From assembly GCA_019244055.1 (NCBI GenBank), contig JAFATG010000292.1:1-36340 (forward strand): 36,340 nt of DNA, in the 5' to 3' direction. Source of the stretch: Acidobacteriaceae bacterium (lineage in GTDB: Bacteria; Acidobacteriota; Terriglobia; Bryobacterales; Bryobacteraceae). The notes below the pieces were generated by a model, which ran no database searches, had not been told where the DNA came from, and saw nothing but the letters and a program-made list of their open reading frames with translations. Shown here one piece after another: positions 2,013 to 34,624 of this stretch. How positions within the stretch are numbered: the stretch's first letter is position 1; every line of letters begins with the position of its first letter. The position numbers and the translations under genes were made by a program.

Positions 2013-2653
2013 TGTGGTGGCGCGCGATGCCCCTGCTTTGTAGCTTTGTTGCACTTGCCTCTGGCGTAATTATCGACCGCATAGCGATTATCGTGGGAAA
2101 CGCCATCATCAAGGACAGCGACATCAACCGCGATGTCAAGGCGACAGAGTTCCTGAACGGCCGGCCCTTGGACCTGAGTAATGCATCCCGAAAGCAAGCC
2201 GCCGACCGGCTCATAAACCAGACTCTGATTCGAAGAGAGATTCGCATAGGCGATTACCCGATTGCCACGTTGCAGCAGGCCGATATTGAACTAAATCGGC
2301 TAGAAAGCCAGAGATTCAAAACTCAGGAAGGTTTTGAGCAAGCTCTGCGCAGATACGGCCTGACCGAACTGGAATTGCGGACGCAGTTTCAGTGGCAGCT
2401 CACAGTGCTGGGGTTCATTGACGCGCGCTTTAAACCGGCTGTGTTGGTCAGCGATCAAGAGATTACGAACTATTACAGGGAGCATGAGGCCGCACTTCAT
2501 CAGGAGTACTCCGGAAAAGCTTCGCTCGACGATCTCCGCGATGACATTCGCAGTACCATAACCGGCGAGAAAGTAAATACCCTTTTCTTCTCATGGTTGA
2601 GCGACCAGCGCAAGCAGACTAAGATTCAGTTTGTCGAGAGAGATCTGGCATGA
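2012..2653 (+). CDS. SurA N-terminal-like periplasmic chaperone without PPIase domain
   Basis: A 213-residue secreted protein. Residues 1 to about 18 form a short signal-peptide-like segment (Arg then MPLLCSFVALASG). The next stretch, IIDRIAIIVGNAIIKDSDI, is the hallmark opening of SurA/PpiD-type chaperones (VVDRIVAVVNDEVIT-like). A helical SurA_N-like region follows, with LINQTLIRREI at about residues 68-78. Full SurA proteins are about 430 residues and carry one or two parvulin domains. None is seen here, so only chaperone activity toward outer-membrane proteins is expected. It overlaps the Omp85 gene by one base and the TamB gene by four bases (ATGA), so translation is probably coupled. 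Family membership is by motif recognition; the lack of a PPIase domain is seen directly from the length. Confidence 0.8.
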   Translation: MWWRAMPLLCSFVALASGVIIDRIAIIVGNAIIKDSDINRDVKATEFLNGRPLDLSNASRKQAADRLINQTLIRREIRIGDYPIATLQQADIELNRLESQRFKTQEGFEQALRRYGLTELELRTQFQWQLTVLGFIDARFKPAVLVSDQEITNYYREHEAALHQEYSGKASLDDLRDDIRSTITGEKVNTLFFSWLSDQRKQTKIQFVERDLA

Positions 2654-13231: not shown

Positions 13232-14521
13232 TTATCGCCAAGCCTTGCCGTCGGGGTAGCGATAAGTCTGTAGCGATTCCTGTTTCATTTCGATGCTATA
13301 TCCGGGGCGTGAAGGCGGGATATAGCGGCCATTGTGCATGTGCACAGGATCGAGAAAGTGCTCATGTAGGTGGTCAACATACTCGAGGAAACGATTTTCA
13401 AGCGACCCCGTCACGCAAATATAATCGAACAGAGAAAGGTGCTGGACATATTCGCATAATCCGACGCCGCCCGCATGCGGGCAAACCGGGGTTCCGAACT
13501 TAGCCGCCATCAGCAGCACGGCGAGAATCTCATTCACACCGCCGAGTCGGCAGCTATCGATCTGGCAGACATCGATCGCTTCCGCCTGAAAGAACTGTTT
13601 AAACATGACGCGGTTCTGGCAATGCTCACCGGTGGCGACACGAATCGGGGCAATCGCCTTGCGAATCGCGGCATGTCCGATCACGTCGTCCGGACTCGTA
13701 GGTTCTTCAATCCACCAGGGATCGAATCGCGCCAACGCCCGCATCCGCAGGATCGCTTCATTGATATCCCAGCGCTGGTTCGCATCCATCATTAACTGCC
13801 GTGAGCCAATTTCTTCCCGAATGATGACGCACCGGCGCTCATCGTCTTGCGGATCGGCTCCCACTTTGATCTTGAACTGTGTCCATCCCTGTGCGATCGC
13901 TTCACGGCAGAGCATTCTCAATTGGAGATCCGTGAAGCCTAGCCATCCTGCCGACGTTGTGTAGGCAGGATATCCGAGAGCCCGCATCTCATTCTCCCGG
14001 GTCCTCCGGGTGGATTGATTGCGGCGAAGAATCACCAACGCTTCATCTCGAGTGAGCGCGTCGGTTATGTAACGGAAATCGATGCAGGAGACGAGCTGCT
14101 CGGGCCCCATATTGACCAGGAGTTGCCACAGCGGCTTCTTCTCGGCCTTCGCCCACAGGTCCCAAACTGCGTTGACAACGGCGGCGGTTGCCAGGTGTAT
14201 CATGCCTTTCTCCGGCCCTACCCATCGCAACTGGCTATCCCCGGTGATTAACCGCCAGAACGCCCCCATGTTCTCCGTAAGCAGTTCAAGCGTTTTGCCC
14301 AAAACTAAAGGCGCCAAGGCTTCAATGGCGGCGACGCACAGCTCATTACCGCGACCAATAGTGAATGTAAGTCCGTGGCCCTCGAGTTGGCTACCCGTGT
14401 GGAGAATGCAGTATGCAGCCGAGTAATCCGGATCGGCATTCATAGCATCGGAGCCAATATGCTGCCGGGACGTGGGAAAGCGGATATCGAGCGCTTCAAC
14501 TCGGGTTATGCGGATCGGCAT
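13232..14521 (-). CDS. fucD: L-fuconate dehydratase (enolase superfamily)
   Basis: A 429-residue enolase-superfamily acid-sugar dehydratase, converting L-fuconate to 2-keto-3-deoxy-L-fuconate. The residue layout matches the characterised Xanthomonas enzyme almost position for position: the KxK base motif at K217/K219, metal ligands D246 (MMDANQRW), E272 (WIEEPTSPDD) and E299 (ATGEH), and the acid/base H349 in VCPHAGGVGLCE. The motifs TSAGWLGF and EYVDHLHEHF are specific to the FucD/ENOSF1 group, and the length fits. It is a single gene here, with no fucose dehydrogenase, lactonase or transporter beside it. It is convergent with the exporter ATPase and is followed upstream by a gene-poor stretch. 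Function is by family; substrate range is inferred. Confidence 0.92.
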   Translation of the reverse strand: MPIRITRVEALDIRFPTSRQHIGSDAMNADPDYSAAYCILHTGSQLEGHGLTFTIGRGNELCVAAIEALAPLVLGKTLELLTENMGAFWRLITGDSQLRWVGPEKGMIHLATAAVVNAVWDLWAKAEKKPLWQLLVNMGPEQLVSCIDFRYITDALTRDEALVILRRNQSTRRTRENEMRALGYPAYTTSAGWLGFTDLQLRMLCREAIAQGWTQFKIKVGADPQDDERRCVIIREEIGSRQLMMDANQRWDINEAILRMRALARFDPWWIEEPTSPDDVIGHAAIRKAIAPIRVATGEHCQNRVMFKQFFQAEAIDVCQIDSCRLGGVNEILAVLLMAAKFGTPVCPHAGGVGLCEYVQHLSLFDYICVTGSLENRFLEYVDHLHEHFLDPVHMHNGRYIPPSRPGYSIEMKQESLQTYRYPDGKAWR

Positions 14522-14897
14522 CAGATCGCCGGTGAGCCTAGCGTACTACAGAGATTGAGCTGCCGCGAGCACGTAGTAATCACGCTATTGACATCGGCTT
14601 CGGTCGGCGATGGTTGACGATGCAGGCGCGCAGACAGAATTTACCGCGCAGCGTCGCATTCGAAAGAAAGACACGCCCACGCTTTATAATGCGCTTGAGA
14701 ATTCCACTGTTTTGATGATTGCGTTCTTCCTCGCTTATGGCAGCGCCGTTAGTGACTCGCTTGGTGATCGCTCGGTGCAGTTTCTGGTGCGGAGAGAAGG
14801 CGTTGAGCCCCCGATCGAGGTGCCAATGGATACCCGCGTTTATCTTAGATCGCAGCAGAAGTGATCTGTGTTAAAACCCGAGAAGATAGGAAAGCAA
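14522..14897. other. Gene-poor stretch between fucD and patatin gene
   Basis: No convincing gene. An 84-codon open frame at 14610-14864 has no recognisable family, and its C-terminal peptide RREGVEPP is what an antisense-read tRNA 3' end typically gives. The stretch presumably holds the fucD promoter on the minus strand and contains the tRNA-like fragment at 14785-14815. Confidence 0.5.
14785..14815 (-). repeat. Diverged tRNA-Leu 3'-end-like fragment (possible old attachment-site remnant)
   Basis: Twelve bases (tggtgcggagag) are identical to the CCA end and acceptor strand of the intact tRNA-Leu at 27172-27183. After that the identity is partial and ends in a shared ccccc: about 20 of 25 bases match from tgcggag onward. 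It lies in the same orientation as the other two copies. Chance is not excluded, because beyond base 14815 there is no similarity. Confidence 0.35.
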
Positions 14898-16088
14898 ATG
14901 TCACTGAAAGCGGAACGATGGAAAGCTTTGCAACCGCGCTACGCAGAGGAGCGACCGCACCGCATGCTCGCGTTTGACGGCGGAGGGATCCGCGGCCTTA
15001 TCGCGCTGGGAATTTTGGAGAAACTGGAGACGCTGATTATCAACAAGACAGGGAAGCAACTCTGCGAATATTTCGACTACATCGCTGGAACTAGCACGGG
15101 AGCGATTATCGCCGCCGGCTTGGCACGCGGTATGACAACAGCAAGTCTAATCGACTTCTATCGTTCGAATGGCAGCCAAATGTTCGAGCACTCCTGCCTC
15201 GTCGAGCGCATCAAGTATTTCTATACGGCCGATCCTCTCAAAGCCAAACTACAGGAAGTATTTGGGCCGGATACCAATCTGGAACCACAAAACCTGAAGT
15301 GTCTCCTGCTAGTAGTAACGAAGAATGTGACAACCGACTCACCTTGGCCGATTAGCAGTAACCCGGATGCTAAATATAACGATCCCACGCGTAAAGATTG
15401 CAATCTGAAGATTCCACTCTGGCAATTGGTGCGGGCTAGCACCGCAGCGCCCATATATTTTCCTCCGGAGATCCTGCAATGGGACAGCAGTGATTCCTCA
15501 AGGACATTCGTGTTTGTTGATGGAGGGGTTACGCCGTATAACAATCCCGCCTTCCTTCTCTACCGCATGGCAACGGAGCCGGCATATCGGCTGAACTGGA
15601 AGGCCGATGAGAGGAACCTCCTGTTAGTTTCCGTCGGCACAGGAGCAGCGGAGTCACTGGGCGCGACTGCGGCTTCACCAAACAAGAACATTGTCTCCAC
15701 GATCGCCGGCCTACCGGGAGAATTGATGTACGGAATCCAGGTAGATCAGGACGTCAACTGCCGCACCGTGGGCCGCTGTACCTGGGGAGCGCCGCTGGAT
15801 CGCGAAATCTTAGACCTGGTGCCCCGAACGATTCTTGACGGTGCGACGCTAGAAGAGCAATACGCGGCACCTACAATTCCACTCTCCACGGATCTTGGGC
15901 GGCGATTTCTCTACACTCGGTACAATGCGGACCTAAGCAGTCAGGGGCTTCATCGGCTCGGTTTTCCGAAGTTGGAGCCGGCAAGCATTCAAAAAATGGA
16001 CGCGGTCGAGAATATCGACTCACTTCTCGAAATAGGAAGGGCTGCAGGTGGGGTTGTGGACCCGCTTCACTTTGGGCCCTTCATTTAG
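14898..16088 (+). CDS. Patatin-like phospholipase
   Basis: A 396-residue acyl hydrolase with an intact patatin Ser-Asp dyad. The oxyanion loop DGGGIRG is at residues 27-33, the nucleophile elbow GTSTG has Ser66, and the DGG motif has Asp208 followed by NNPA. Family members release fatty acids from phospholipids; some are anti-phage effectors or secreted toxins, others have housekeeping roles. No signal peptide or membrane segment is seen, so it is cytoplasmic unless exported by another route. I chose the ATG at 14898 because AGGA lies six bases upstream; an in-frame GTG at 14868 would add ten residues. No nucleotide cyclase of the CBASS type lies next to it. The next gene is the SLOG-like protein, 335 bases away with its own regulatory signals. 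Confidence 0.9.
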   Translation: MSLKAERWKALQPRYAEERPHRMLAFDGGGIRGLIALGILEKLETLIINKTGKQLCEYFDYIAGTSTGAIIAAGLARGMTTASLIDFYRSNGSQMFEHSCLVERIKYFYTADPLKAKLQEVFGPDTNLEPQNLKCLLLVVTKNVTTDSPWPISSNPDAKYNDPTRKDCNLKIPLWQLVRASTAAPIYFPPEILQWDSSDSSRTFVFVDGGVTPYNNPAFLLYRMATEPAYRLNWKADERNLLLVSVGTGAAESLGATAASPNKNIVSTIAGLPGELMYGIQVDQDVNCRTVGRCTWGAPLDREILDLVPRTILDGATLEEQYAAPTIPLSTDLGRRFLYTRYNADLSSQGLHRLGFPKLEPASIQKMDAVENIDSLLEIGRAAGGVVDPLHFGPFI

Positions 16089-16423
16089 CAGAACGGCCCA
16101 TTCATTCCTGAGCATGTGTTCGAGAGGCGAGTGGGCGAGCAATTTACTGAGTTTAACTAGCTGGTCCTGCCTAGTTTGCTTTATCCATGAGAAGGGTGCT
16201 GTTGCGTCAGCTTGTGCTTGCGCCTGCTCGTATTTGATGTGTCCAGATCTAAAACCCGTCCGTTTGCGGGGTCTGGTTTTTGGCCGAAACCCATAATGAC
16301 AAAGCACGTTATTTCGGGCATCCTGGATCCTTCCAGTCTGAGTTTCGGAGCGCTATGATAACACGGAGAAACGAACGAAAGTTTGCCAATCGCTAGCTTC
16401 GATCGGTTGGCAACGAGTGATAA
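16089..16423 (+). promoter_or_regulatory. Intergenic region with possible terminator, -10 box and inverted repeat ahead of the SLOG-like gene
   Basis: No gene is seen. A GC-rich imperfect hairpin followed by ctggttttt at about 16254-16281 could terminate the patatin transcript. TATGAT at 16354-16359 is a good -10 element with a poor TTCCAG 17 bases upstream. An inverted repeat TTGCCAATCG (16383-16392) / CGGTTGGCAA (16404-16413), 9 of 10 paired, ends ten bases before the ATG at 16424. It could be an operator or an mRNA hairpin over the ribosome-binding region. Confidence 0.4.
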
Positions 16424-16963
16424 ATGATTGTGGCATTGGCCGGAAGGCGAATCGACTCACCCGAAGCAACCCCCCCTAGGTTCCCGCTGAGCAATGTGGA
16501 ACGCGTACGCGACAGGGTTACGACGCTGCTTCAAGCAAACGATGTCACAGCTATCGTTAGCAGCAGTGCTTGCGGTGCTGACTTGGTGGCTCTTCAGGCT
16601 GCTGATGCACTGGGTATTCGGCGGCGTGTCGTGCTCCCCTTTTCCGCTGAACGTTTTCGAGTGAGTTCTGTGATCGATCGTCCCGGCGAATGGGGATCGA
16701 TTTACGATAACGTGATTGATTCTGTTGCGGCCAGGGGGGATCTTGTCGAACTACAATCCAATCGCGAGGACGGGAAGGCTTACGCAGCTGCGAACTTGGT
16801 TATTCTTAACGAGGCTGAAGCTCTAGCGCGAGAGTCGCGCCAGGACGCAGCGGCTGTCTTGGTGTGGGATGGCGCGTCACGCGGTGAAGGCGATCTCACG
16901 GTGGAGTTCGGACAGACAGCGCGGGCTCGCGGGTTGAAGATACTCGAAGTAAAGACGGTCTAG
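16424..16963 (+). CDS. SLOG-like (Rossmannoid nucleotide-binding) protein of unknown function
   Basis: A 179-residue soluble protein. The first strand and glycine/arginine turn (MIVALAGRRID), the SSSACGADLVAL segment at about residues 46-57, and VVLPFSAERFRVSSV at about 69-83 resemble the SLOG superfamily (relatives of DprA, LOG and the TIR-associated SLOG domains), which bind nucleotides or NAD-derived ligands. A late VLVWDGASRGEGDLT strand-loop also fits. These proteins are often found in predicted nucleotide-signalling conflict systems. Here it sits between a patatin phospholipase and a GH19 lysin, but with long spacers, so a common operon is not shown. The fold assignment is inference from motifs; no enzymatic residues can be claimed. 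Confidence 0.6.
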   Translation: MIVALAGRRIDSPEATPPRFPLSNVERVRDRVTTLLQANDVTAIVSSSACGADLVALQAADALGIRRRVVLPFSAERFRVSSVIDRPGEWGSIYDNVIDSVAARGDLVELQSNREDGKAYAAANLVILNEAEALARESRQDAAAVLVWDGASRGEGDLTVEFGQTARARGLKILEVKTV

Positions 16964-17043
16964 CGATTAGTGCTTCGCTGCCGTCTAATTCGGCAAGTTC
17001 AAGTGGACGACAAGCTCGTATGACTCCTTCAATTGATATGATT

Positions 17044-17064
17044 CAAACTCTCTGAAAGAGTTTG
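17044..17064 (+). promoter_or_regulatory. Perfect 8-bp hairpin directly upstream of GH19 start codon
   Basis: CAAACTCT (17044-17051), a 5-base loop, and AGAGTTTG (17057-17064) form a perfect inverted repeat that ends four bases before the ATG at 17069. No free Shine-Dalgarno sequence is left, so the hairpin may control initiation. It is not followed by a T-run on the plus strand and is not a normal terminator for the gene before it. Confidence 0.5.
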
Positions 17065-17068
17065 GGCA

Positions 17069-17677
17069 ATGTTCACTTTCGATGATCATAAACTGTTCTC
17101 GGCTTACGTCACAGCGTTCCCCGGCCCGCCACCCAAGCCGGAACAGGTCGCCCGAGCGGGAACCTTAATGGGCTTTCTCAGCACTGATTCCGACATTTCG
17201 GATATCCGCTGGGCCGCTTATATGCTCGCGACAGTCAAGCACGAGTGTGCGGACACGTGGACCCCGATTGCAGAACGAGGGTCACCGGAGTATTTTCGCC
17301 GCTATGATGCGGACACTGTTTTAGGTCACCGACTCGGCAATACGGAGGATGGTGACGGGTTTCGATTCCGAGGGCGCGGTTACGTTCAGATCACGGGGCG
17401 AGCAAATTACGGTCACTTAGGACAATTGCTCGGTATGGGCGATCAACTGACAGAAAATCCCGATCTTGCGCTTGATCCTAATGTCGCGTATAGGATCATG
17501 TCGATCGCTATGCGTACGGGATCTTTCACGGGAAAAAAGCTTGGCGATTTCATCAGCCAGAATTCGTGCGATTTCATGAACGCCCGCCGCATCATCAATG
17601 GGACTGACCAAGCTGAGAAGATTGCCGGTTACGCAACAAAGATCCAGCAGGTGCTGACATCCGCGATCATCGAATAA
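17069..17677 (+). CDS. GH19 chitinase/endolysin-like glycoside hydrolase
   Basis: A 202-residue lysozyme-fold hydrolase of the COG3179 (GH19) type common in phages and prophages. The catalytic glutamate is in ATVKHECADTW (about residues 53-63). The conserved core RFRGRGYVQITGRANYGHLG is at about residues 91-110, and NPDLALDPNVAYRIM follows, then FTGKKLGDFI and ARRIINGTDQAEKIAGYA. It should cut peptidoglycan or chitin. No signal peptide is seen, so release would need a holin-like route or secretion; no holin is visible nearby. The gene ends 39 bases before the displaced tRNA-Leu fragment, so it borders the island junction. A phage origin is plausible. Confidence 0.88.
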   Translation: MFTFDDHKLFSAYVTAFPGPPPKPEQVARAGTLMGFLSTDSDISDIRWAAYMLATVKHECADTWTPIAERGSPEYFRRYDADTVLGHRLGNTEDGDGFRFRGRGYVQITGRANYGHLGQLLGMGDQLTENPDLALDPNVAYRIMSIAMRTGSFTGKKLGDFISQNSCDFMNARRIINGTDQAEKIAGYATKIQQVLTSAIIE

Positions 17678-17716
17678 AAAGGTTTGGGATTAGCACTCGT
17701 AGCGTGGTAATTAAGG

Positions 17717-17770
17717 TTGGTGCGGAGAGGGGGACTTGAACCCCCACGGTGTTACCCGCTAGCACCTCAA
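17717..17770 (-). repeat. Displaced 3' part of tRNA-Leu(GAG): candidate attachment site (distal copy)
   Basis: 54 bases identical to 27171-27224, in the same orientation. Read on the minus strand, it covers the tRNA from the first base of the anticodon loop (TTGAGGT) through the variable arm, T-arm, acceptor strand and encoded CCA. Identity breaks precisely at the loop border (agt versus agc). The 5' half of the tRNA is missing, so this cannot be a functional gene. This is the footprint expected from integration into a tRNA gene. Confidence 0.9.
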
Positions 17771-18013
17771 ACTAATCATCCCGTCCGAAGGTACGCCGTT
17801 CCAATGACTTAGGGCGACAGATCGTGTGGAAGCGGGTGGGGTCGATAGGCCCGAATGGCACATTAGTGGCACAAACAAGGGATCGCGCCCGCGATTCGTG
17901 TCTTCACAAACCTTGCTCAGATAGATCGACGATTGCACGGTTTCGAGTCGGCAAAGTCCATCGCTCGGAGCCTGCCCGGCGACCTGCTGGTTTTTAAACG
18001 GAAACTTCGGTAG
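17771..18013. other. Non-coding stretch beside the displaced tRNA fragment, with TGGCACA direct repeat
   Basis: No convincing gene on either strand. Two copies of TGGCACA at 17856-17862 and 17867-17873 are spaced 11 bases apart, one helical turn. Arm-type binding sites of tyrosine recombinases look like this, but the match is only suggestive. The start of the RepA remnant lies at the right-hand edge, after the in-frame TAG at 18011. Confidence 0.35.
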
Positions 18014-18861
18014 GCAGAAGCAATCCAGCTCGTGCGAATCAATCGCGAGAACCGCGCTCAGAACCTGGGCTTTGCCTCGCGACCTTTTGTCTTGTGTGGT
18101 CTGCCGATCAAGCGTCCCGCTAAGGGCGTGCTGCTGCAGGAGCGGCGAAACGGGCAGTTTTTGTTGCAGGTCACTGGCCATCCCCGGTACGGAGTGCCCT
18201 GGGGCCAGGACCGCCTCATTCCTATTTTCGTGGCGACCCTAGCGGTACGAAACAGAAACAGACCATTACCTTCCGCAGCGCGGCTGAAATGCTGGACGTA
18301 TTCGGGATGCAGCAGGGTGGCTCTCAGTATCGTCGCCTCGTTACAGCGTTCCGGCGGTGTTCGGAGCGACGATATTCTTCGGCACCGATACGCAGCACGA
18401 GAAAGCGACGGTGATGCAGCAGGCGCGATTTAATTTCATGCGGGAGGCGAGGATCTGGTATTCGCGCGATCCGAATCAAACCGTTTTGCCGGGCGGCTTC
18501 GAGAATGAGATCGTCCTCAGTGACGAATTTTTCGGGAGGTAACCACACACTCGATTCCGACCGATCTCGAGGCGGCGAAGGCGCTCTCGTCGGCTCCAGC
18601 GGCGCTCGATCTGTTCATGTGGTGTCATACCGCTGTTTTAGGGCGATGGGCTCTGAGAGCGTACCCCTCTTTGGCGATTTCGGCCTCGCCGGTCAACTCG
18701 GAAGTGTCGATTATGCCCGGCCTCGCAAATTCAGGGAACGGCTGGAACGCTGGCTCGGTCTAGTCCGAACATTATGGCCGAGTTGCCCAGCTCATATCAC
18801 CTCCGATGGCGACTACATGCTGATTCAGCCGGCACTGGCACTGGCGGCAAAGGGGGCATAG
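18014..18861 (+). pseudogene. repA: RepA-type plasmid replication initiator, inactivated by four frameshifts
   Basis: The reading frame steps four times, each by the loss of one base, at about 18249, 18355, 18533 and 18623. Joining the frames gives one continuous protein of about 280 residues that follows the RepA family order: LGFASRPFVLCGLP; LQVTGHPRYGVPWGQDRLIP; TFRSAAEMLDVFGMQQGG; QYRRLVTAFRR then VFGATIFFGTDTQ; ARIWYSRDPNQ; SIPTDLEAAKALSSAPAALD; SVPLFGDFGLAGQLGSVDYA; RKFRERLERWLG then LWPSCPAHITSDG. The N-terminus is unclear (TAG at 18011). An active form would initiate plasmid replication. It is immediately followed by the DnaA domain IV protein. Intact long genes nearby make random sequencing error an unlikely sole cause, but this cannot be excluded. 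Confidence 0.85.
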
Positions 18862-19161
18862 ATGGCATCACCCTCCTTTGTGCCTGATTCGGTTTCGCAT
18901 CGCCGGATTTCACTTGCGGAGATTGACGCGGCTGTGTCGGCACGCTTGGGTCCCACCCGCGGATTAGGGAATTCACAGCCGGCCTGTTTCAATCGCCAGG
19001 TTGCGATGTACTTGGCCAAGCATGTCGGGCCGTGGAGCACAACCGTCATCGGCCGCTTCTACAACGGTCGCGATCACTCAACTGTTTGCCACGGTATTCA
19101 GAGGATCGGGGCGCTTCGCGATAGCAACCCTGACCTCGATCTATTGTGTTATCGGATCTGA
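18862..19161 (+). CDS. Stand-alone DnaA domain IV (DNA-binding) protein
   Basis: A 99-residue protein consisting mostly of the C-terminal DNA-binding domain of DnaA. The diagnostic helix-turn-helix NRQVAMYLAKHVGPWSTTVI (about residues 46-65) and the signature GRDHSTVCHGIQRI (about 71-84) match the domain that recognises DnaA boxes. The AAA+ ATPase part is absent, so it cannot unwind origins by itself; it could act as a partner or antagonist of chromosomal DnaA or as an accessory to RepA. The ATG lies right after the RepA stop (TAG, ATG) and the 3' end overlaps a small ORF, suggesting one plasmid replication operon. Domain identity is strong; role is inferred. Confidence 0.87.
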   Translation: MASPSFVPDSVSHRRISLAEIDAAVSARLGPTRGLGNSQPACFNRQVAMYLAKHVGPWSTTVIGRFYNGRDHSTVCHGIQRIGALRDSNPDLDLLCYRI

Positions 19162-19316
19162 AACACCAGCTAACCGGGGTTGGTGCAGCCCTGGACGAAA
19201 GCGAAGCAGAACCAAGCGATGGCCAGGTGAGTCTGAGTCGAGACGATCTCGAACAGCTGGCCGAACTGATTGCAGAGCGCGTATATGAGCATTTGAGGAA
19301 GATGATCCCTCGGTAG
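19146..19316 (+). CDS. Small protein of unknown function, coupled to the DnaA-like gene
   Basis: A 56-residue frame starting at GTG 19146, overlapping the DnaA-like gene by 16 bases. The second half, SLSRDDLEQLAELIAERVYE, is a clean amphipathic helix, and the end is HLRKMIPR. Charged, helical composition and the coupled start speak for a real gene, perhaps a small DNA-binding or adaptor protein. I do not recognise a family. The alternative frame that starts at 19001 lacks such composition and I regard it as a shadow. Confidence 0.5.
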   Translation: MLSDLKHQLTGVGAALDESEAEPSDGQVSLSRDDLEQLAELIAERVYEHLRKMIPR

Positions 19317-19400
19317 CAGGCCAGGCGATGCTGCAGCAGGACTAAGACAGATGAATCTCACCTGACCAAAGGCCAGGAACAAAACCAGAAATTAACGACT

Positions 19401-19661
19401 ATGCCAACGTTGAGTATTTTTTTCGGAATCGTCATTCGCATGTACTTCGACGACCATCCGCCGCCGCACTTCCACGCCATCTACGGTGAAGACGAGGTGA
19501 AAATAGCTATCGAAACCTTGAAGGTAATTGAAGGAGGACTCCCACGGCGAGCTCTTGCGCTTGTTCTGGATTGGGCCGAACTGCACAGACAAGAATTGCG
19601 CGACAATTGGGTGAGAGCGCAGGAGCACGAACCGCTGAGGCCCATCCAGCCACTGGAGTAA
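19401..19661 (+). CDS. DUF4160 family protein
   Basis: An 86-residue protein with the canonical DUF4160 layout: MPTLSIFFGIVIRMYFDDH, the histidine-rich PPPHFHA motif at about residues 20-26, then IETLKVIEGGLPRRALALVL and a C-terminal helix WAELHRQEL. The biochemical function is unknown. Genes of this family are very often paired with DUF2442 genes, as here (four-base gap), and the pair has been predicted to act like a toxin-antitoxin module. In this place it may be a maintenance module of the former plasmid. Which partner would be toxic cannot be read from the sequence. Confidence 0.88.
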   Translation: MPTLSIFFGIVIRMYFDDHPPPHFHAIYGEDEVKIAIETLKVIEGGLPRRALALVLDWAELHRQELRDNWVRAQEHEPLRPIQPLE

Positions 19662-19665
19662 CGAA

Positions 19666-19929
19666 ATGCATCGAATCGTTCGCGTAAGCGCTGGCGAGGG
19701 GTACACACTCAATGTGGCATTCAGTGATGGTACGAGTGGAAAAGTCGATCTGTCTTCAAGACTCTTTGGGCCGATGTTTGAACCGCTCCGAGATTCGGCG
19801 CTGTTTTCGCAAGTTCAGGTTGATGAGTTTGGAGCCGTCTGCTGGCCTAATGGAGCAGATCTAGCTCCGGATGCTGTCTATCGAACGATCTCGTCCGGAG
19901 CTGACCAGCAAAGTGAATTAGCTTCTTAA
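19666..19929 (+). CDS. DUF2442 family protein
   Basis: An 87-residue protein with the DUF2442 pattern: an N-terminal beta region (VRVSAGEGYTLNVAFSDG), KVDLSSRLFGPMFEPLRD at about residues 26-43, and VDEFGAVCWPNGADLAPDAV at about 51-70, where the WPNG-D-LAPD motif is diagnostic. The family is small, soluble and uncharacterised, and is thought to be the antitoxin or regulator partner of DUF4160. It starts four bases after the DUF4160 stop, so both are in one transcript. The function is inferred only from this recurrent pairing. Confidence 0.85.
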   Translation: MHRIVRVSAGEGYTLNVAFSDGTSGKVDLSSRLFGPMFEPLRDSALFSQVQVDEFGAVCWPNGADLAPDAVYRTISSGADQQSELAS

Positions 19930-19934
19930 TTAAC

Positions 19935-20126
19935 TCACTGGACGGCAGCCCCGTCCTCTTTGATTACTTCGCGTGTACTGGTTAGCACAGTCCATACTGG
20001 GCGATTTAATCCGACCGTGATTTCCCAGAAGCCGGTCTGTCCAATCTCGCCGTAGGCGACTACACGTCCAGGTGGCGGTGTGCAGTTTCCGAGAACCGTT
20101 ATCGGCCACCGTACATGAATGAGCGA
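19935..20126 (-). pseudogene. C-terminal remnant of an unrecognised gene
   Basis: About 63 codons between an upstream stop (20127-20129) and TGA at 19935-19937 have coding-like composition: HVRWPITVLGNCTPPPGR, then VVAYGEIGQTGFWEITVGLN and RPVWTVLTSTREVIKED. No ATG, GTG or TTG start sits ahead of the conserved-looking part, so it reads as the tail of a decayed gene. A family is not recognised. It could be chance, but the codon pattern is better than that of flanking frames. Confidence 0.35.
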
Positions 20127-20247
20127 TTAGCTCCAAGTGGCCGTCCATAGCGGCATTCCGGCAATATTTGTTTTCGGTGGAAATACAAGTGTCGGCGCCT
20201 CGTGAGTTTGTCATTCGGTACCATTTAGCTGTTCCTTTGCTCTGGCT

Positions 20248-21702
20248 ATGACACGCGTCCGTTTTGCGCCATCCCCCACCGGTTACCTTCACATAGGCGG
20301 GGCGCGAACCTTTATCTTTAACTGGCTTTACGCCCGGCACAATCGTGGCACGATGATTCTTCGCATCGATGATACCGACGTCGAGCGGAACAGTGAGGTG
20401 TCGCTCGAGTCGATCCATCAAGGTCTCGAATGGCTAGAACTCGGGTGGGACGAATTCTACCGTCAGTCCGAGCGCGTCGCTCTGCATCGACAGGCCGCCT
20501 GGGCCATTTTTGAGAAAGGCCTTGCGTATCGGGACTTCACGTCGGCCTCACTAGCGCTAGAAAATTCAAGCGAAGGATGGGTTTCGAATCCAGGAATGCG
20601 GGAGCTATCTCGAGAGGAAAGCGATCGCCGGGCCCATTCTGGCGAAGCTTTCGTACTGCGCTTCCGCGTGCCACGCGAATCGCGAAACGAGATTGTTGTA
20701 CGCGATCTTGTGTACGGGACGGTGACGAAGGCTACAAGCGACGTGGAGGACTTCGCGCTGCTCCGCTCGACAGGCGTGCCGACCTATCACATGGCATCCT
20801 GTGCGGACGACGCAGATCTGCGCATTACCGACATTCTCCGCGGCCAGGAACACTTGGCGAATACCTTCAAACACGTGCTGATCTTCGAAGCTCTTGGCGT
20901 CGACACGCCGAACACTGCTCATTTGCCACTCCTGATGGCGCCCGACGGTGCGAAGCTGTCAAAGCGCAAGCATGGTCCCGTCGTGAGCGTCACGACATAC
21001 CGTAATGCCGGTTTCCTGCCACATGCGTTTGTCAACTTTCTTTGCCTGCTCGGATGGTCGCCGAAAAATGACATCGAGAAAATGTCACGAGAGGAACTCA
21101 TTGAGCTGTTTTCGCTCGAAGGCATCCACCGCGCGAACGCCATCATTAACTTTACAGAGAAAGACCCTTTCGATCCAAAGGCCATATGGCTGAATGCGGA
21201 ACACCTCCGCACGCTCAGCTTCGACCAACTCGCAAGACGCTTGATGCCTTATGCGCAACAGGCAGGCTTCCGGAACGTCACGGTAGAGAAGCTTCGTGCG
21301 ATTACTCCGCTCATCCGTGAACGGATCCGGTTGTTAAGCGAGGTGGCTATGGTCGCGGATTTCTTCTTCGGGGAACCGGGACCCTACGATCCCACAGAAC
21401 TGATTCCTCAGAAGGGGGATGCCAACATGGCTACGCTGGCGTTGTCCAAGGCCAAAAAAGTTTTGGCTGCCGTGCCTGTCTTCGACCATGGAACCATCGA
21501 GGCAGCCCTACGAGGCGCTGCGGATGAACTCAAACTCAAAGCAGGACAGACGTTCCAGCCTATTCGCGTCGCGGTTTGCGGACGCAAGAATGCACCGCCT
21601 CTCTTCGAGACGCTCGAAGTGCTCGGGCGGGAGACTGTGCTGACTCGTATCGACTCCGCGCTAGATATTGTCAATGCACGACAACAACTTGCCTCTCTCT
21701 AA
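20248..21702 (+). CDS. gltX: Glutamyl-tRNA synthetase
   Basis: A 484-residue class I aminoacyl-tRNA synthetase that charges tRNA-Glu (and possibly tRNA-Gln). The ATP-binding [13 protein letters not shown] has the HIGH-equivalent HIGG at residues 15-18, and the KMSKS-equivalent KLSKR starts at 236. The GluRS-type RDLVYG and [17 protein letters not shown] segments are present. The C-terminal part from about residue 330 is the all-helical anticodon-binding domain. In place of the usual Cys-rich CFCT segment, residues about 92-95 read RDFTS. Length fits bacterial GluRS (470-500). The stop overlaps glnS by 29 bases, so the two are co-translated. The gene is intact and lies within the tRNA-Leu repeat. 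Confidence 0.95.
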
Positions 21703-23350
21703 CTTTATAAGGGATATCATTCTCAAGGATCATGTGAGTGGAAAGTATGGCGGGCGCGTCCGCACGCGCTTTCCACCGGAGCCGAATGGCTACCTGCACG
21801 TCGGGCATGCCAAGAGCATCGTATTGAATTTCGGCCTCGCCAAGGAGTTCAGGGGCGAGTGCAACCTGCGATTCGACGATACAAATCCTATCAAAGAAGA
21901 GACCGAATACGTTCAATCGATTATCGAAGACATCAAATGGCTGGGCGGCGATTTCGGTGATCGGATCTTTTATGCATCAGACTACTTTTCGCAGTTGTAT
22001 CTTTGGGCCATCGAGCTCATAAACAAAGACAAAGCCTACGTCTGCGATTTGAGCAGCGACCAGGTGCGCGAGACCCGCGGCACTCCTACGCAACCCGGTC
22101 ACGACAGCCCCTTTCGTGACAGGAGCGTGGAAGAGAATCTCGGTCTTTTCGAGCGCATGAAGAACGGAGAGTTTCCCGATGGCGCACGGACATTACGCGC
22201 GAAAATCGACATGAGGTCGCCGAATCTCAATTTGCGGGATCCCGTGATATACCGGATTTTGCATGCTGAGCATCATCGAACCGGCAACCAGTGGTGTATC
22301 TATCCGATGTACGACTGGGCGCACGGCGAATCCGATTCCATCGAAGGCATCACTCATTCCATTTGTACGCTCGAGTTTGAAGACCATCGTCCGTTATATG
22401 ACTGGTTTCTGGAGCAGCTTGGGATTTTCCACCCGCAGCAGATCGAATTCGATCGATTGAACCTAACGTACACGGTGCTGAGCAAGCGCAAGCTGCTACG
22501 GCTAGTCGAGCAAGGTATCGTAGAAGGCTGGGATGACCCGCGCATGCCCACGATTAGCGGGATGCGGCGCCGCGGTTACTCCCCGGAAGGGCTGCGGAAT
22601 TTCGCACGGAGCCTCGGCGTATCGAAGACCAACGGCATCACGGAATTTGAAAAGCTCGAGTATTATATTCGCGAGGATTTGAACAAGGCGGCGAAACGCG
22701 TGATGGCAGTATTGCGCCCCTTGAAACTCGTGCTGACAAACTATCCCGAAGGCCAGGTGGAGTTCGTCGAGGCTATTAACAATCCTGAGGACGCAAGTGC
22801 GGGGACGCGGCCGCTACCCTTCTCCCGTGAGCTTTGGATCGAGCAGGAGGACTTTCTCGACGTGCCTCCCAAAGGGTACCACCGCTTGTATCCGGGCAAT
22901 GAGGTCCGGCTACGCTATGGCTATATCATCAAATGCCAGAACGTGGTGAAAGATCCGGCGACCGGCGAGATTCTGGAGATTCAGTGCACATATGATCCAG
23001 ACACACGCAGCGGCCAACGGACGCGGAAAGTGAAGGCGACGATTCATTGGGTATCGGCGGTGCACGCGATTCCCGTGGAGGTTCGGCTTTATGACAAGCT
23101 GTTCACTACAGAGAACCCAAACAATGTACCAGGGGACGGGGACTTCACAATGTATTTGAATCCCAAATCGCTCGAGGTGGTGCAGGCGAGGGCCGAAGCG
23201 TCGTTGGCAAGCGCTAGGCCTTGTGACCGCTACCAATTCGAGCGCCTCGGGTATTTCTGCGCTGATAGGTGCAGCGCGGCGGGGCGACTGGTTTTTAATC
23301 GCACTGTCGAGTTACGAGACACCTGGGCGAAGCTTCAGAAGAAGATCTAG
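21674..23350 (+). CDS. glnS: Glutaminyl-tRNA synthetase
   Basis: A 558-residue class I synthetase for tRNA-Gln. [17 protein letters not shown] has the HIGH-equivalent HVGH at residues 42-45, and VLSKRKL at 268-274 is the KMSKS loop, with the first position Leu instead of Met. GlnRS-specific features include RFDDTNP and EEDIKWLG-like residues, [15 protein letters not shown], and a two-barrel C-terminal anticodon-binding part with [19 protein letters not shown] prefer the ATG at 21674 to the TTG two codons earlier. GlnRS is patchy in bacteria; its presence means this genome need not rely only on the indirect GatCAB route. The gene overlaps gltX, an arrangement suggesting coordinated Glu/Gln charging. 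Confidence 0.95.
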
Positions 23351-23410
23351 TGCTGGGGCTTTGAAAGCTGCCCGCCGGCTCTCTTCCAAAAGGAATAGAA
23401 TAGTGCTGAA

Positions 23411-23683
23411 GTGCCCATTCGAGAGTACAAACCGGACCAGTTCTTTCGGGCATCCATTGACACAATGGATGATACAGAAGATTGCAAGACCTACGTTGCC
23501 GAGTACTTCTCATGGAAGGTTCCGCGGCACGGCGAGGCAGTTTTTACAGAGCTGCAGGAGGCAGAGAAGTTTTTGCTCGCAGTATACGCAGAAGACACGC
23601 CCGATATTCCCGTATTGGAGCGGCAGTTCAGAATGACTCCTTACCTTGAATCACAGCCGAAAAGCGCGCAAACATCGGCATAA
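23411..23683 (+). CDS. Small protein of unknown function downstream of glnS
   Basis: A 90-residue soluble, acidic protein starting at GTG 23411, 60 bases after glnS. Visible parts are REYKPDQFFRASIDTMDD, then YFSWKVPRHGEAVFTELQEA and a C-terminal segment TPDIPVLERQFRMTPY. I recognise no family, signal peptide or membrane segment. The codon composition is consistent with a gene and the frame stays open to a clear stop, but support is moderate and the start is uncertain. Confidence 0.45.
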   Translation: MPIREYKPDQFFRASIDTMDDTEDCKTYVAEYFSWKVPRHGEAVFTELQEAEKFLLAVYAEDTPDIPVLERQFRMTPYLESQPKSAQTSA

Positions 23684-24121
23684 ACTGCACCGCACCGCTT
23701 CCGGCCACTAATGCTGATCCATGGCTGGGACAAAGCCGCGCGGAGCCGGATGATTTGACGATATTTGAATAACTGAAGTGGCTCACGAGCGCGAAGGCTC
23801 CGGGGTTGTGGAAAGGTCTGTTTACTGACATCCCACAAAACACGTTCCGTGCCCCTCCGTGAGAAATCGACCCGACCTGCTATTGCTTTTCAGACCATTC
23901 TCCAGCTGGCGACTTCCCGTCAACTTGGGTGAGCGGATGCTAGGGGCGTTTTTCAGGAGTAATCGGCAAACGCCTTATAACGGCAAATCTCGGACTTATG
24001 AAGCCAAATACACTGGCAATCTACTTGAAACTTTTTGCAACAGGCACAGAAGACTGAGCAGATGCGCGGTAGACCGGCGACTCAGAATCTCAGCCCTGGA
24101 ACTCAACTGTTACTCATGCGC
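23684..24121. other. Non-coding stretch between the small gene and ADOP pseudogene
   Basis: I see no gene, tRNA, hairpin-plus-T-run or repeat here that I can support. A 195-codon plus-strand frame starting at 23859 runs into the antisense of the ADOP and is regarded as a shadow. Confidence 0.5.
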
Positions 24122-26774
24122 CTACTCGGCGCGTAGCGCTTCAATCGGGTTTACTGATGCGGCTCTTTTCGCGGGCACGAAGCTGGCAAGTAACGATGCA
24201 AAGCCGAGCAGAACAGCTATAGCGATCAGGCTCTCAGGATCCCATGAGTTGACGCCGAACAGGATCTGGCGAGCTAAAGTAGCGCCGCCGATTGCAGCTA
24301 TCGCGCCGATCGCAATACCCAGAACGGCGAGTGTGCCAGCCTCACGTATGATCAATCGATACACGGACCGATGCTCTGCGCCGAGGGCCATTCGCACGCC
24401 GATCTCGCGCGTTCTTTGGCTGACCGAGTATGCGATAACACCGTAAAGCCCGACTATTCCTAACAGCAACGCGGCGGCACCAAAACCTGCCACGAGCATC
24501 GCTGAAGAGCGGTGCAGAGACGCTGTTTCGGAGTTCTTAATGAACGCTTCCATCGTCGCCTCGTTCCGCACGCCAATATCAGTGTGCAGTTGCTCAATTG
24601 TCCGTCTCAGACCCGGAAGTATTGCTTGCGGCTCCTGCGATGTGCGGGCAATCACGAAGAAGTAGTCGCTTGGGTCCTGGTTGAAGGGATGATATTCCGC
24701 CGGCCAGATATCCGAATCGAGTTCGCCTTCGCGGATATCACCTACGACACCGATGATGGTCTTGATAGATTTCGGCGATAACCGGGTGTCGCCAATTTGT
24801 TGTCCGATCGGGTTCTCACCGGGAAAGTATTTCCGGGCAAGAGTGTTATTGATGATGACTACTTCCGGCTTCGACTTGTCCTCAGCATCGCTGAAGTAGC
24901 GGCCGCGCAAAAGCGTCGCTCCGATGGTTCTGAAAAATTCTCCACTGACATCTCGCTCGTTCACTTCGATGTGCTTACCGTCATACGGCCTGCCGACGAA
25001 ACGAATCCAGTCCGTGTCGCCGTTGGAACCCGCTGGCCGCAGCGTGGTTTAACGCGGCCGACTGCACTCCCGGAATCGTTTCCACCTGGGTGAGGACGTC
25101 GCGCCCCAGCGCGATGCTCTGTTCGTCTTTGCCGTACTTAGTATCGGGCGCTCCGACCTGTAAGGTCGCCAGATGATAAGGGCGAAAGCCGAGTTCCACG
25201 TGCATCAATTGATACAAGCTCTTGCCGAAAAGTGAGGCCCCGACGAGCAAGACCATGGCGGTTGCCAGTTCCACAACTACCAACCGTGAACCAACTCTGC
25301 GCCAGGCTTTTCCAGCCGAGCCTCGGCTCCCTTCCGCCAAACTGTTGCCCATATCAGAGAACGAAAAATGGAACAGTGTAGTAGCGGTAAATACCACCAC
25401 GGCCATCGCCGCCAGCGCTAATACGAAGGTAACAACCCGCCCATTTACACATACACTCAGCATGAACGGCATTCCGGGGAGCATGTCAGCCGGAATGAGC
25501 GTCTTCAGCGCCTGCGTGCCCCACTTGGTGAAAACGAGCGCGGCGACGCTCGATGCCGTGACAATGGCAAACGCCTCTGTCGCGAATTGCATTGTCAACC
25601 GGGACCTTGATGCCCCGAGTGCTCCTCGCACCGCGATTTCTCGACGCCGCCCCTCCGAGCGCACCAGGATGAGGCCGGCGACGTTCACATAGGCTATGAG
25701 CAGAAGAAGAGCTGCACCGCTCATTAATACAAGGAGTATGGGACGAATTTTGCCTACGATCGCCTCCGAGAGGGGAATGAGGGAAACGCCGCGGCCCCGA
25801 TTCGAATCAGGGAATAGTCGCTCGAGGTGCCTGGCGATAGCGGAGAGATTGGCCAGAGCGCGCTCAGGGGACACGCCGTCTTTCAGACGCCCAACGGCGA
25901 ACAGATCGTGGCAGCTGCGACGCTGCTCACACAAACTGTCCTTGGGATTGATTGTCGTCCAGAAATCGCTGGAATCGAGAGGGGCGAAATGAAAACTGGG
26001 CGGCAGCACGCCGATCACGGTATACGCGTTGCCACTTAACAAGACCGGCTGTCCCAAAATGCTTTTACGGCCGCCGAATTTCTCTTGCCACAACGAAAAA
26101 CTCAGGAGAGCCACGCGACGGCTACCCGGACCGTCTTCGTTTTTGGCAAACGTTCGCCCCACCGCCGGAGTCACTCCCAGTGTTTGGAAGAAGCCGCCGC
26201 TCGCGCGGCCGCCGAGGACGGGCTCAGTCCCGGATCGCGTGCTCATCAGGAAACCGGCTCCCGTGTAGGCATCAAAGGATTCCAAGACGGTTTGTGAGCG
26301 CTTCCAATCTTGGAAATCCTCATAAGAAAGGTTTGCGATGGCAAGCGGGTCGGAAGTTTCCGCTAGTCGAACCAGGCGCGCTGGTTGACGGTAAGGTATG
26401 GGTTGAATCAGCGCCGCGTCGACGAACGCGAAGATCGCAGCGCAAACAGCCATTCCAAGTGAAAGCACAAACACGGCGGTAACAGAATAGCCGGGCCGGT
26501 TTACCAATTGCCGAAACGTGAATCGGAATTCCGAAATAAGGTGCTCCACCGAAAGCACGGTGCTTCTGTCGCGATAGGCTTCTGTTGCCGCGGCGAGGCC
26601 GCCGGCCTCGAGAAGCGCGGCGCGTCTGGCCTGCTCCGGTATCATGCCGGAGCGGAGGTTGTCGGCGATTTGCATTTGAAGATGGCTCTCAAATTCCTCG
26701 GCCATGTCGTTGTCCCGATGCCTCTGCTTAAATAACCCTAGGATCCGGCTAGCCCAGCTTCTTAGCGTTCTCAT
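24122..26774 (-). pseudogene. ADOP-type MacB/FtsX permease, split by one frameshift
   Basis: Two minus-strand frames (26774-24981 and 24964-24122) are one gene. The upper part has an N-terminal cytosolic helical domain (EEFESHLQMQIADNLRSGM), a first TM segment, the MacB periplasmic domain (LGVTPAVGRTF, LLSFSLWQEKFGG) and an FtsX block (LLLIAYVNVAGLILVRSEGR, RREIAVRGALGASRSR). After a frame change at about 25029-25050 it continues as DWIRFVGRPYDGKHIEV, then RDVSGEFFRTIGATLLRG and a second FtsX block (REIGVRMALGAEHRSVYRLI, PAKRAASVNPIEALRAE). This is the duplicated layout of acidobacterial orphan permeases of about 800-880 residues. The start overlaps the padR stop (ATGA), so PadR probably controls it. 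One extra base (or two missing) explains the break. Confidence 0.88.
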
Positions 26775-27115
26775 GCCAAGTCCTCACTCGGTTTGAAGAA
26801 GCGTCCAAGAATCGCGGTCGTTTGAGCCCAATCGCGGGCTTCGCGTTCCAGTTGCTTGCGACCGGCGCGCGTTAGCTTGTAAAACTTCGCGCGGCGATTA
26901 TTTTCCGATACACCCCATTCAGAGGAGATGGAGCCTTCCTGCTCCAGCTTCAAGAGCGCTGGGTAGAGTGTTCCGTAGTTCAGGGACAAGAGATTGCCGC
27001 TTGTCTGCTCGATACGGCGTGCAATGCCGTACCCATGTAAAGGCCCTAGCGTTTCGAGCCTCTTCAGCACCATAAGAGCGAGTGTGCCTTGCCAAACATC
27101 CACTTTGCCGTCCAT
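26771..27115 (-). CDS. PadR-family transcriptional regulator
   Basis: A 114-residue winged-helix regulator. The opening VDVWQGTLALMVLKRLETLG and HGYGIARRIEQTSG is the PadR helix-turn-helix, and NYGTLYPALLKLEQEGSIS is the recognition helix and wing; KFYKLTRAGRKQLERE follows. I use the ATG at 27115 because GGAAG sits six bases upstream; a GTG at 27145 would add ten residues. It overlaps the ADOP gene by four bases, a layout common in Acidobacteriota, where PadR is expected to repress the permease and itself in response to an unknown ligand. It lies next to the 3' end of tRNA-Leu, separated by 27 or so bases beyond its upstream GTG. Confidence 0.92.
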   Translation of the reverse strand: MDGKVDVWQGTLALMVLKRLETLGPLHGYGIARRIEQTSGNLLSLNYGTLYPALLKLEQEGSISSEWGVSENNRRAKFYKLTRAGRKQLEREARDWAQTTAILGRFFKPSEDLA

Positions 27116-27170
27116 TATGGGCTTCCCATATGTAGTATCGGACACGGCATATGGCTAACCAATGGGAGTT

Positions 27171-27224
27171 TTGGTGCGGAGAGGGGGACTTGAACCCCCA
27201 CGGTGTTACCCGCTAGCACCTCAA
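27171..27224 (-). repeat. tRNA-Leu part of the 54-bp direct repeat (proximal copy)
   Basis: Identical over 54 bases to 17717-17770, in the same orientation, 9454 bases apart. It covers the intact tRNA's anticodon loop to the CCA and one further base. Inside the intact gene, this is where an integrated element would have restored the tRNA 3' half. Confidence 0.9.
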
Positions 27225-27256
27225 GCTAGTGCGTCTGCCAATTCCGCCATCTCCGC
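27172..27256 (-). tRNA. tRNA-Leu (anticodon GAG), CCA encoded
   Basis: An 85-base class II tRNA on the minus strand. The acceptor stem pairs GCGGAGA (5') with TCTCCGC (3'), followed by discriminator A and an encoded CCA. The anticodon stem CTAGC/GCTAG encloses the loop TTGAGGT, giving anticodon GAG, which reads CUC and CUU. A long variable arm (GGGTAACACC-like) and the T-arm GGGGG TTCAAGT CCCCC complete it. It lies 12 bases downstream of secG on the same strand, as in the secG-leuU order of E. coli, so the two are probably co-transcribed. Its 3' part is the target of the 54-bp duplication. Confidence 0.97.
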
Positions 27257-27268
27257 TGATGAGAAAAC

Positions 27269-27598
27269 TTACTTGTGGGGTCCCGGTTGGGATTTTGGCG
27301 CGGGCGTTTTCGGAGCGGTAACCGGCGCGGGACGGCGATGCTCCAGGATACTTCCCGTGCTCGGTGTTCGGTTGTTCGCCATAATCACCAGAACCAGTGA
27401 GGTAATCATGAACAGGGCGGCCGCAACCGTGGTCGCCTTGGACAAAACGGTGGCAGTTCCGCGGGGCCCGAACACCGTTTGAGAACCCATACCGCCGAAG
27501 GCGCCTGCCAAATCTGCCGCTTTCCCGCTCTGCAGAAGGACGACGATGATCAGAAAGAAACAAATAATAACGTGCAGGGCCGTGACCAGATACAACAT
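27269..27598 (-). CDS. secG: Preprotein translocase subunit SecG
   Basis: A 109-residue inner-membrane subunit of the SecYEG channel. The first helix ([20 protein letters not shown]) is followed by the family motif [22 protein letters not shown], quoted here in part ([14 protein letters not shown]), with the second helix at about residues 56-75 and the [12 protein letters not shown] loop typical of SecG. The C-terminal 35 residues are Pro/Ala/Lys-rich and probably disordered. The start ATG at 27598 is 47 bases from the divergent pdxH start, so both share a promoter region. It helps cycle SecA during export; export is needed by the OM and pilus operons here. Confidence 0.94.
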
Positions 27599-33935: not shown

Positions 33936-34624
33936 AGGCAGCGGCGCAGACGAGAATTTTTGGTCTCCGGGTCGGAATCGATCCCAAAATACTGGCAGGT
34001 GGCCTGATCGCGATCGCGGTACTTCTATTTTGGTATAACTCGCGATCCGACGATGCGGGCGGCGCGGCGAGCGTCAGTTCGCACGCTCGTGGCGGAACGA
34101 TCGCGTCTCCCCAGGCCAGGCGCACGGCGGTGCGCCGGACGGCTGCGCCGAGTGATCGGGGGGTGCCGCGCGTGAGGCCGGTAGATCCGACGCATGGCGA
34201 TCTGGATCCCACGCTGCGGCTGGATTTGCTAAGCCGCGTTCAATCCGTACCTCCAGCTCCTGCTGGCCGAAATATCTTCGAAGCGGGCCCCGCGCCAGGC
34301 GTTACTAATAACGGTGCGGGTACGATCAAGGGACCAATCATACCGGTCGTGCAAAGACCTCCAGTTCAGACGATGCCGGCAGCGATCACCGCTCAAGTAA
34401 ACATCCCGCTAAAGTACTACGGCTTCGCGAAGCCGGTGAATAAGCGAAGGGGGAATCTCGGCTTCTTTCTCGACGGCGACAACGTGCTGATGGCGAGTGA
34501 AGGCGAGTTGATACAAAAGCGATACTTGGTGGTACAACTCACGCCTCACGGCGCCCGTCTTGAAGACACTCAGTTGAGGCAGGATCAGACCCTGCCCGTG
34601 ATGGCGGAAGCGGCGGTTCAATGA
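33932..34624 (+). CDS. PilP/GspC-like membrane-anchored protein
   Basis: A 230-residue protein with one TM helix at about residues 19-36 (DPKILAGGLIAIAVLLFWYN), a Pro/Arg/Thr-rich linker and a small C-terminal beta-domain: IPLKYYGFAKPVNKRRGN, then GFFLDGDNVLMASEGELIQK and RYLVVQLTPHGARLEDTQLR. This resembles the HR domain of GspC and the beta-domain of PilP, which contact the secretin. No lipobox cysteine is visible, unlike PilP. The position after PilMNO supports the link; family assignment is inferred from architecture. Confidence 0.65.
   Translation: MKAAAQTRIFGLRVGIDPKILAGGLIAIAVLLFWYNSRSDDAGGAASVSSHARGGTIASPQARRTAVRRTAAPSDRGVPRVRPVDPTHGDLDPTLRLDLLSRVQSVPPAPAGRNIFEAGPAPGVTNNGAGTIKGPIIPVVQRPPVQTMPAAITAQVNIPLKYYGFAKPVNKRRGNLGFFLDGDNVLMASEGELIQKRYLVVQLTPHGARLEDTQLRQDQTLPVMAEAAVQ

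Follow-up and report, generated by a model that had tools for sequence, protein, structure and literature searches.

A segment bounded by tRNA-Leu(GAG) repeats and enclosing a gltX–glnS pair, probably left by a decayed integrative element in a Bryobacteraceae-type acidobacterium

The DNA analyzed here (the window) is a 36,340-bp stretch that makes up the whole of contig C245 of a draft genome (G000; 6.2 Mb, 372 contigs, 96.7% complete, 3.81% contaminated) whose relatives are Bryobacteraceae-type Acidobacteria; G-, C-, and L-numbers denote genomes, contigs, and loci, respectively. The window contains a segment delimited by an intact tRNA-Leu(GAG) gene and a displaced copy of its 3′ half. The tRNA gene (27172–27256, minus strand; ARAGORN, and Rfam RF00005 at 55.1 bits) is the sole tRNA detected in the window and the presumed integration target. 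From the displaced copy toward the tRNA, the segment holds a broken repA, a gene for a stand-alone DnaA C-terminal domain (dnaA-C), genes for a DUF4160 and a DUF2442 protein, a second glutamyl-tRNA synthetase gene (gltX2), a glutaminyl-tRNA synthetase gene (glnS), a split ADOP permease gene, and a PadR regulator gene. Its GC content is within the range of the contig, so that composition is uninformative.

The displaced copy (17717–17774, minus strand), a putative attR, and the tRNA-side copy of the att core, which runs from the anticodon loop to the 3′ end (27171–27228, minus strand), form a direct repeat with 57/58 identical positions: the first 54 bp are exact (17717–17770 = 27171–27224) and are followed by one A/G difference and three identical bases. 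The displaced copy lies on the 3′ side of the tRNA, in the same orientation, at a spacing of 9,454 bp. As the anticodon arm reads CTAGC-TTGAGGT-GCTAG, the 54-bp repeat starts at the first base of the anticodon loop and runs to the 3′ end of the tRNA. The original prediction, made from the DNA alone, had described two copies of 54/54 identity in the same orientation, starting at this base; comparison of the repeats and reading of the tRNA arm bear out each of these points. When the G000 genome was searched with a 261-bp query around the displaced copy, the sole further match (E ≤ 0.001) was a tRNA-Leu(CAG), at 77%.

Directly behind the displaced copy lie an element arm and a repA pseudogene, its pieces spread over several frames (17775–18861, plus strand), which are homologous to the arm and repA of the related genome G014 (72.7% over 681 bp). 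The tblastn pieces at 17927–18831 match open RepA reading frames (ORFs) of relatives, two of which contain RepA_C/RPA Pfam domains. The next gene, dnaA-C, is an open ORF for a DnaA domain IV protein (18862–19161, plus strand; PF08299, Bac_DnaA_C, 7.8e-13). A RepA remnant and a DnaA domain IV had been described at the end with the displaced copy, and a frameshifted RepA and an open dnaA-C ORF are what is found there. The earlier statement that no integrase is visible holds for the window as well: none was recognized on inspection of its ORFs, and when 71 ORFs from the elements and integrase loci of relatives were searched against 14500–27300 (tblastn, E 1e-4), only repA and dnaA-C matched. The transfer genes of a related element (G012:C274, described below) had no tblastn match in the island either, no search aimed at relaxases having been made. 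The G000 genome contains 14 Phage_integrase matches. A plasmid form of RepA was considered and set aside, a plasmid collection having yielded one weak relative only (Pelobacter, 31%).

The tRNA–secG–pdxH–lolA region was sought in 23 genomes of the genus and family and gave some match in all 23, several of which (such as those in G001, G011, and G016) were only to other tRNA-Leu genes. In G014 (C188), an exact 58-bp displaced half is followed by the homologous arm and repA, the similarity starting right after the core; before the core, the DNA of G014 and that of the window are unrelated. Displaced 3′ halves lacking the rest of the tRNA were found in G014 (58 bp), G012 (C53; 58/58), and G013 (C126; about 57 bp). 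In G002, the tRNA-Leu is intact, and from 144 bp beyond its 3′ end a 708-bp stretch aligns (89.7%) with G014 DNA that lies 938 bp outside the displaced copy; no displaced copy was detected in the 17 kb of G002 read. G002 retains both anchors of the window, namely secG on the 5′ side of the tRNA (27269–27598, minus strand; identified by comparison with relatives) and TamB on the far side (2650–7548, plus strand; PF04357; 62.6% over 522 aa to G002). There, TamB lies 15.6 kb beyond the tRNA, and the window's genes have only ~30% permease matches between the two. Judged by these alignments, G014 looks like a filled site and G002 like an empty site for the same element end.

An uninterrupted locus in a relative had been proposed as the confirmation of the insertion, and this was obtained in part: G002 is empty for the same element end, with both anchors present, but the flank on the GH19 side was not seen empty. 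Site-specific integration into the tRNA, as originally proposed, is upheld by the comparisons: a second species shares the junction, a third has the site empty, and relatives of this repA lie behind the 3′ halves of tRNA genes. The arrangement that would speak for the contrary, gltX–glnS–padR at secG–tRNA-Leu without a displaced copy, was unseen in the tRNA flanks of 13 relatives, some of which were short. Overall, most of the 14 tRNA-Leu(GAG) flanks compared are unlike one another, the exceptions being G004/G010, G017/G019, and TamB in the window and G002.

Other arrangements at tRNA-Leu genes were observed in these genomes. In G010 (C333; L074:16256–16424) and G017 (C227; L089:10829–11004), which belong to different genera, the native tRNA-Leu(GAG) beside secG is reduced to its 5′ half, and a complete, different tRNA-Leu(GAG) lies 38 bp and 58 bp, respectively, from the cut gene. 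The two replacement tRNAs are nearly identical outside the variable arm and the anticodon stem, as though the full tRNA had come in with an element. Copies of only the last 23–26 bp of a tRNA-Leu occur in G009 (C43; L095:1–23 and 1758–1783, two close copies at one locus) and G014 (C317; L134:10334–10356), which suggests that the crossover of other elements falls within the T arm. In G018 (C36; L088:11533–13766), a 2.1-kb segment runs from a displaced tRNA-Leu 3′ half to the tRNA and contains a 374-aa ORF, the start of which appears Fic-like.

Matches to RepA, with the G014 piece as query, were found in 13 of 25 genomes, G000 and G014 included, and in 5 of 20 repA loci a dnaA-C gene follows, as in the window. 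In G020 and G023, the DNA before repA is a tRNA-Gly(CCC) 3′ half, from the anticodon loop on, and is identical (46/46) to that of an intact tRNA-Gly(CCC) located elsewhere in the same genome; these assignments come from BLAST, ARAGORN, and direct comparison. A search with Rfam at a relaxed threshold left the truncated tRNAs undetected in four loci. A Phage_integrase match lies beside the intact tRNA-Gly of G020. On C274 of G012, repA is followed by genes with T2SSE (VirB11-like), CagE/VirB4, TrbL, VirB8, and CagX domains, and the tRNA-like sequence upstream of this repA matched no particular tRNA; no att site was identified there. On C259 of the same genome, 30 bp separate tRNA-Leu(GAG) from the end of an ORF for a tyrosine recombinase. 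From these pieces, we infer an element plan of tRNA–int–transfer genes–repA–attR, of which the window would keep only the last part; the whole plan was found on no single contig. The related elements appear to be integrative and conjugative elements (ICEs), and the window is best described as containing the decayed distal end (attR–repA–dnaA-C) of an element whose integrative nature is well supported and which was probably conjugative. The loci outline a repA–dnaA-C element family that uses tRNA 3′ halves (Leu-GAG and Gly-CCC) in Bryobacteraceae-type Acidobacteria.

The segment was also said to enclose gltX, glnS, and a PadR/ADOP pair, and ORF and profile matches agree. gltX2 (20248–21702, plus strand; TIGR00464, 403.8 against a cut-off of 289.95) matches the resident gltX on C117 at 51%, and glnS (21674–23350, plus strand; TIGR00440, 712 against 425.8) is the only GlnRS gene found in G000, no second full-length match being present. 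Compared with G016, dN/dS is about 0.08 for gltX2 and about 0.06 for glnS; against G016 and G036 together, the values of about 0.06–0.09 indicate purifying selection on both genes, as a rough estimate, since synonymous sites are near saturation. A full-length glnS is present in 6 of 39 relatives (in two pieces in G018) and in only one of 16 congeners (G016), or one of the seven with completeness of ≥90% and contamination of ≤5%; five of the 16 are less than 80% complete. Of the 16 congeners, 14 have the resident type of gltX (≥75% to the C117 gene), two of these with the gene in pieces. No gltX match was obtained in G015, which is 55% complete, and G016 has only the gltX2 type. G000 has the resident GluRS, gltX2, and gatB, the last found in 16 of 17 genomes, G000 included, with no match in G014. 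G000 thus possibly has both glutamine-decoding routes, that of GlnRS and that of the resident GluRS with GatCAB.

In a tree of 30 GluRS sequences, which leaves aside G003 and G014 (gltX in pieces), G015 (none), and L159 (partial), the 11 glnS-linked GluRS form one clade (100/100). Within it, G016 joins G036 of another family (98/91), with G000 outside both; the other GluRS of G000 groups with its genus. Among 87 glnS loci, gltX2-like genes (62–82%) lie 3–126 bp from glnS in 11 distinct acidobacterial loci (L081 and L151, being one contig, were counted once), which suggests that the two genes are transferred together within the Acidobacteria. The acidobacterial loci L085, L172, and L207 have no adjacent gltX2-like gene, L087 is a fragment, and seven loci of other phyla have a distant gltX (33–38%) within 148 bp. 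In G016 and G036, the pair is present and the resident-type gltX was undetected, and the reverse state holds in 14 of the 15 other congeners of G016 (G000 aside) and in both examined congeners of G036 (G035 and G037). Strict mutual exclusion of the two gltX types was rejected, as G020 has a resident-type gltX with a lone glnS. The residue Arg358 of the T. thermophilus GluRS, a marker of a discriminating enzyme that charges tRNA-Glu only, did not separate the two GluRS: the resident gltX1 has Arg in this column (alignment to 1g59), and so, apparently, does gltX2, read by eye from alignments to other GluRS.

The remaining genes of the segment are those for the DUF4160 protein (19401–19661, plus strand; PF13711, 9e-24) and the adjoining DUF2442 protein (19666–19929, plus strand; PF10387, 5.1e-16) and, on the minus strand, the C-terminal (24122–24964; TIGR03434 profile 530–803 of 803) and N-terminal (24981–26774; profile 1–499 of 803) parts of the split ADOP permease and the PadR regulator of an acidobacterial paralog family (26771–27145; TIGR03433, 130.8 bits with a cut-off of 101.8; PF03551). 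The best match of the permease in 24 relatives was at 53% (E 1e-120; at most 55 candidates scored per genome), which fits an accessory origin but proves little, since such permeases are many here. Outside the displaced copy, a patatin phospholipase, a 179-aa protein of unknown function, and a GH19 enzyme are encoded at 14868–17677 (plus strand; PF01734, PF00182); of five proteins submitted to PADLOC, the patatin alone matched, as a phospholipase effector model. A weak third copy resembling a tRNA-Leu 3′ end lies at 14784–14815 (minus strand), a possible older attR, and contains the 12-mer TGGTGCGGAGAG, which has three matches in the window against 0.09 expected, at up to one mismatch. Its ungapped 40-mer score of 24 equals the best of five shuffles, and it scores alike against tRNA-Leu(GAG) and tRNA-Leu(CAG). 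Since G001 has an ortholog (77.6%) of the window's enolase near a tRNA-Leu(CAG), the weak copy could stem from either tRNA-Leu. The interval 14784–17716, which this weak copy and the displaced copy delimit, may be a tandem island of older date. A 27-bp tandem repeat was also seen at 35401–35535, inside the ORF at 34621–35874.

We consider it probable that a RepA-type element integrated into tRNA-Leu(GAG) and then decayed, with gltX2–glnS within the island. A tyrosine integrase would have recombined an attP, a copy of the tRNA-Leu 3′ half, with tRNA-Leu(GAG) at the anticodon loop; the element's copy would have rebuilt the tRNA, and the host's own 3′ half would have been displaced to 17717. The att arm, repA, and dnaA-C would have been kept at the distal end. 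Frameshifts would later have broken repA, and loss of the integrase, which in relatives lies beside the tRNA, and of the transfer genes would have fixed the island, with the DUF4160/DUF2442 genes, the GluRS and GlnRS operon, and the PadR/ADOP pair as its present interior. As far as DNA comparison can tell, the repeat geometry, the shared junction, the site empty for the same element end in a relative, the repA genes behind tRNA 3′ halves, and the decay are all in evidence. Several observations weigh against this account. About 0.8 kb of the G014 flank has no explanation, and the G014 contig ends within repA, leaving its far end unread. The outer genes of the window (GH19, patatin, and enolase) were not seen next to tRNA-Leu(GAG) in any relative, so that the exact empty site of the window was not seen. 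The G000 genome lacks a close relative of the integrase beside tRNA-Leu(GAG) in G012 (best E 1.1e-4). Given the draft state and the 3.81% contamination of G000, it is conceivable that the contig is misjoined at the 54-bp repeat or that C117 is a contaminant. With a draft contig and a 54-bp repeat, the assembly might be misjoined, or the tRNA 3′ half duplicated locally, with no integration at all; the same core–arm–repA junction in G014 and the comparison of empty and filled sites make this very improbable.

More weight is due to the view that only the ends (att copies, repA, and dnaA-C) derive from the element and that separate, later recombination at a tRNA-Leu hotspot for foreign DNA brought in gltX2–glnS and PadR/ADOP. 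It accords with the variable tRNA-Leu(GAG) flanks, with the lack of element-family genes at 15 other acidobacterial glnS loci, and with the missing integrase-proximal end; yet the segment contains no further att copy (att copies were the only scars searched for) and a single insertion is the simpler account, and we regard later entry as rather unlikely. The pair might instead be an old resident, lost in most congeners, beside which the element inserted only a short repA end. The loss of acquired GlnRS is documented (PMC3927822), and the pair is common to G000 and G016 of the genus. This is nonetheless improbable, as the G016 pair is closer to that of G036, of another family, than to that of G000, glnS is absent from 15 of 16 congeners, the downstream neighbor of the pair differs in G016, and the tRNA and the displaced copy enclose the pair.

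Returning to a single integration, the simplest reading, likely but unproven, is that gltX2–glnS arrived on this element, to judge by the position of the pair; the absence of glnS from those congeners and a gltX2 lineage that crosses families also favor cargo. We infer that PadR/ADOP came in the same way and that the pair gives a direct route to Gln-tRNA(Gln) beside the resident GluRS and GatCAB route. Here, too, there are points on the other side: 36 element proteins (integrases, RepA, DnaA-C, transfer genes, DUF4160, DUF2442, and PadR) had no tblastn match at 1e-5 at the 15 acidobacterial glnS loci, only one of these has a tRNA (L085, 9.8 kb off), and no element was seen with gltX2–glnS plus its own integrase or transfer genes. 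With no element genes at these loci, the case for the island as vehicle is one of position. It is possible, and we hold this only tentatively, that RepA-type tRNA-integrating elements ferry a complete direct glutamine-decoding unit, in which GlnRS is joined by its own GluRS lineage, among Acidobacteria whose route is otherwise that of GluRS and GatCAB, G000 having both routes and G016 being the state after replacement; the negative result at the 15 loci slightly lowered our confidence in it. If this is true, mobile elements would be a driving force in the replacement of a core translation pathway. The states found across the genus, namely the resident GluRS alone, both types, or the acquired pair alone, resemble the stages of a pathway swap such as is otherwise deduced from deep trees, and the locus and its relatives offer concrete material for testing how bacteria change Gln-tRNA synthesis.

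Islands in tRNA genes are common, and their cargo is usually dispensable. Islander (PMC4383910) describes tRNA-targeted islands of 2–200 kb with a regenerated tRNA and a displaced 3′ fragment, tandem arrays being known. The window resembles them in its downstream fragment of the same orientation, its anticodon-type crossover (subsite A), its intact tDNA with an end fragment, and its length within 2–200 kb; among the filters tested, it would be rejected by the integrase filter only; it also differs in being decayed. Absence from the same site in a relative was observed for G002 (both anchors) and for the G014/G002 pair, and the replication and att modules of an ICE are represented by the repA remnant and dnaA-C next to attR. 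The putative ICEs of the same genus and family (G012:C274, and G020:C10 with C5 and C34 on separate contigs) share repA with the window; unlike them, the window has a broken repA, and no integrase or transfer genes were found in it. G020 also has repA next to a displaced tRNA half, of tRNA-Gly rather than tRNA-Leu. Tycheposons (PMC10872708) are likewise tRNA-bordered cargo islands, and the replacement of a cut native gene by a complete, different tRNA-Leu(GAG) in G010 and G017 recalls them; the window differs in that its tRNA is rebuilt from a 3′ half and in its RepA remnant. Transfer of GlnRS between bacteria, and its loss, are known from PMC3927822, Table 1 of which apparently gives one of six acidobacterial genomes with GlnRS, one GluRS, and gatCAB. 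Unlike the cases there, glnS here forms a two-gene unit with a gltX of its own lineage, a tRNA-bounded island encloses this unit, and the resident GluRS is kept. A search of one library with limited terms found no published example of a synthetase operon enclosed in such an island. Set beside these systems, the class of event is ordinary and well supported, and the cargo is unusual and possibly informative.

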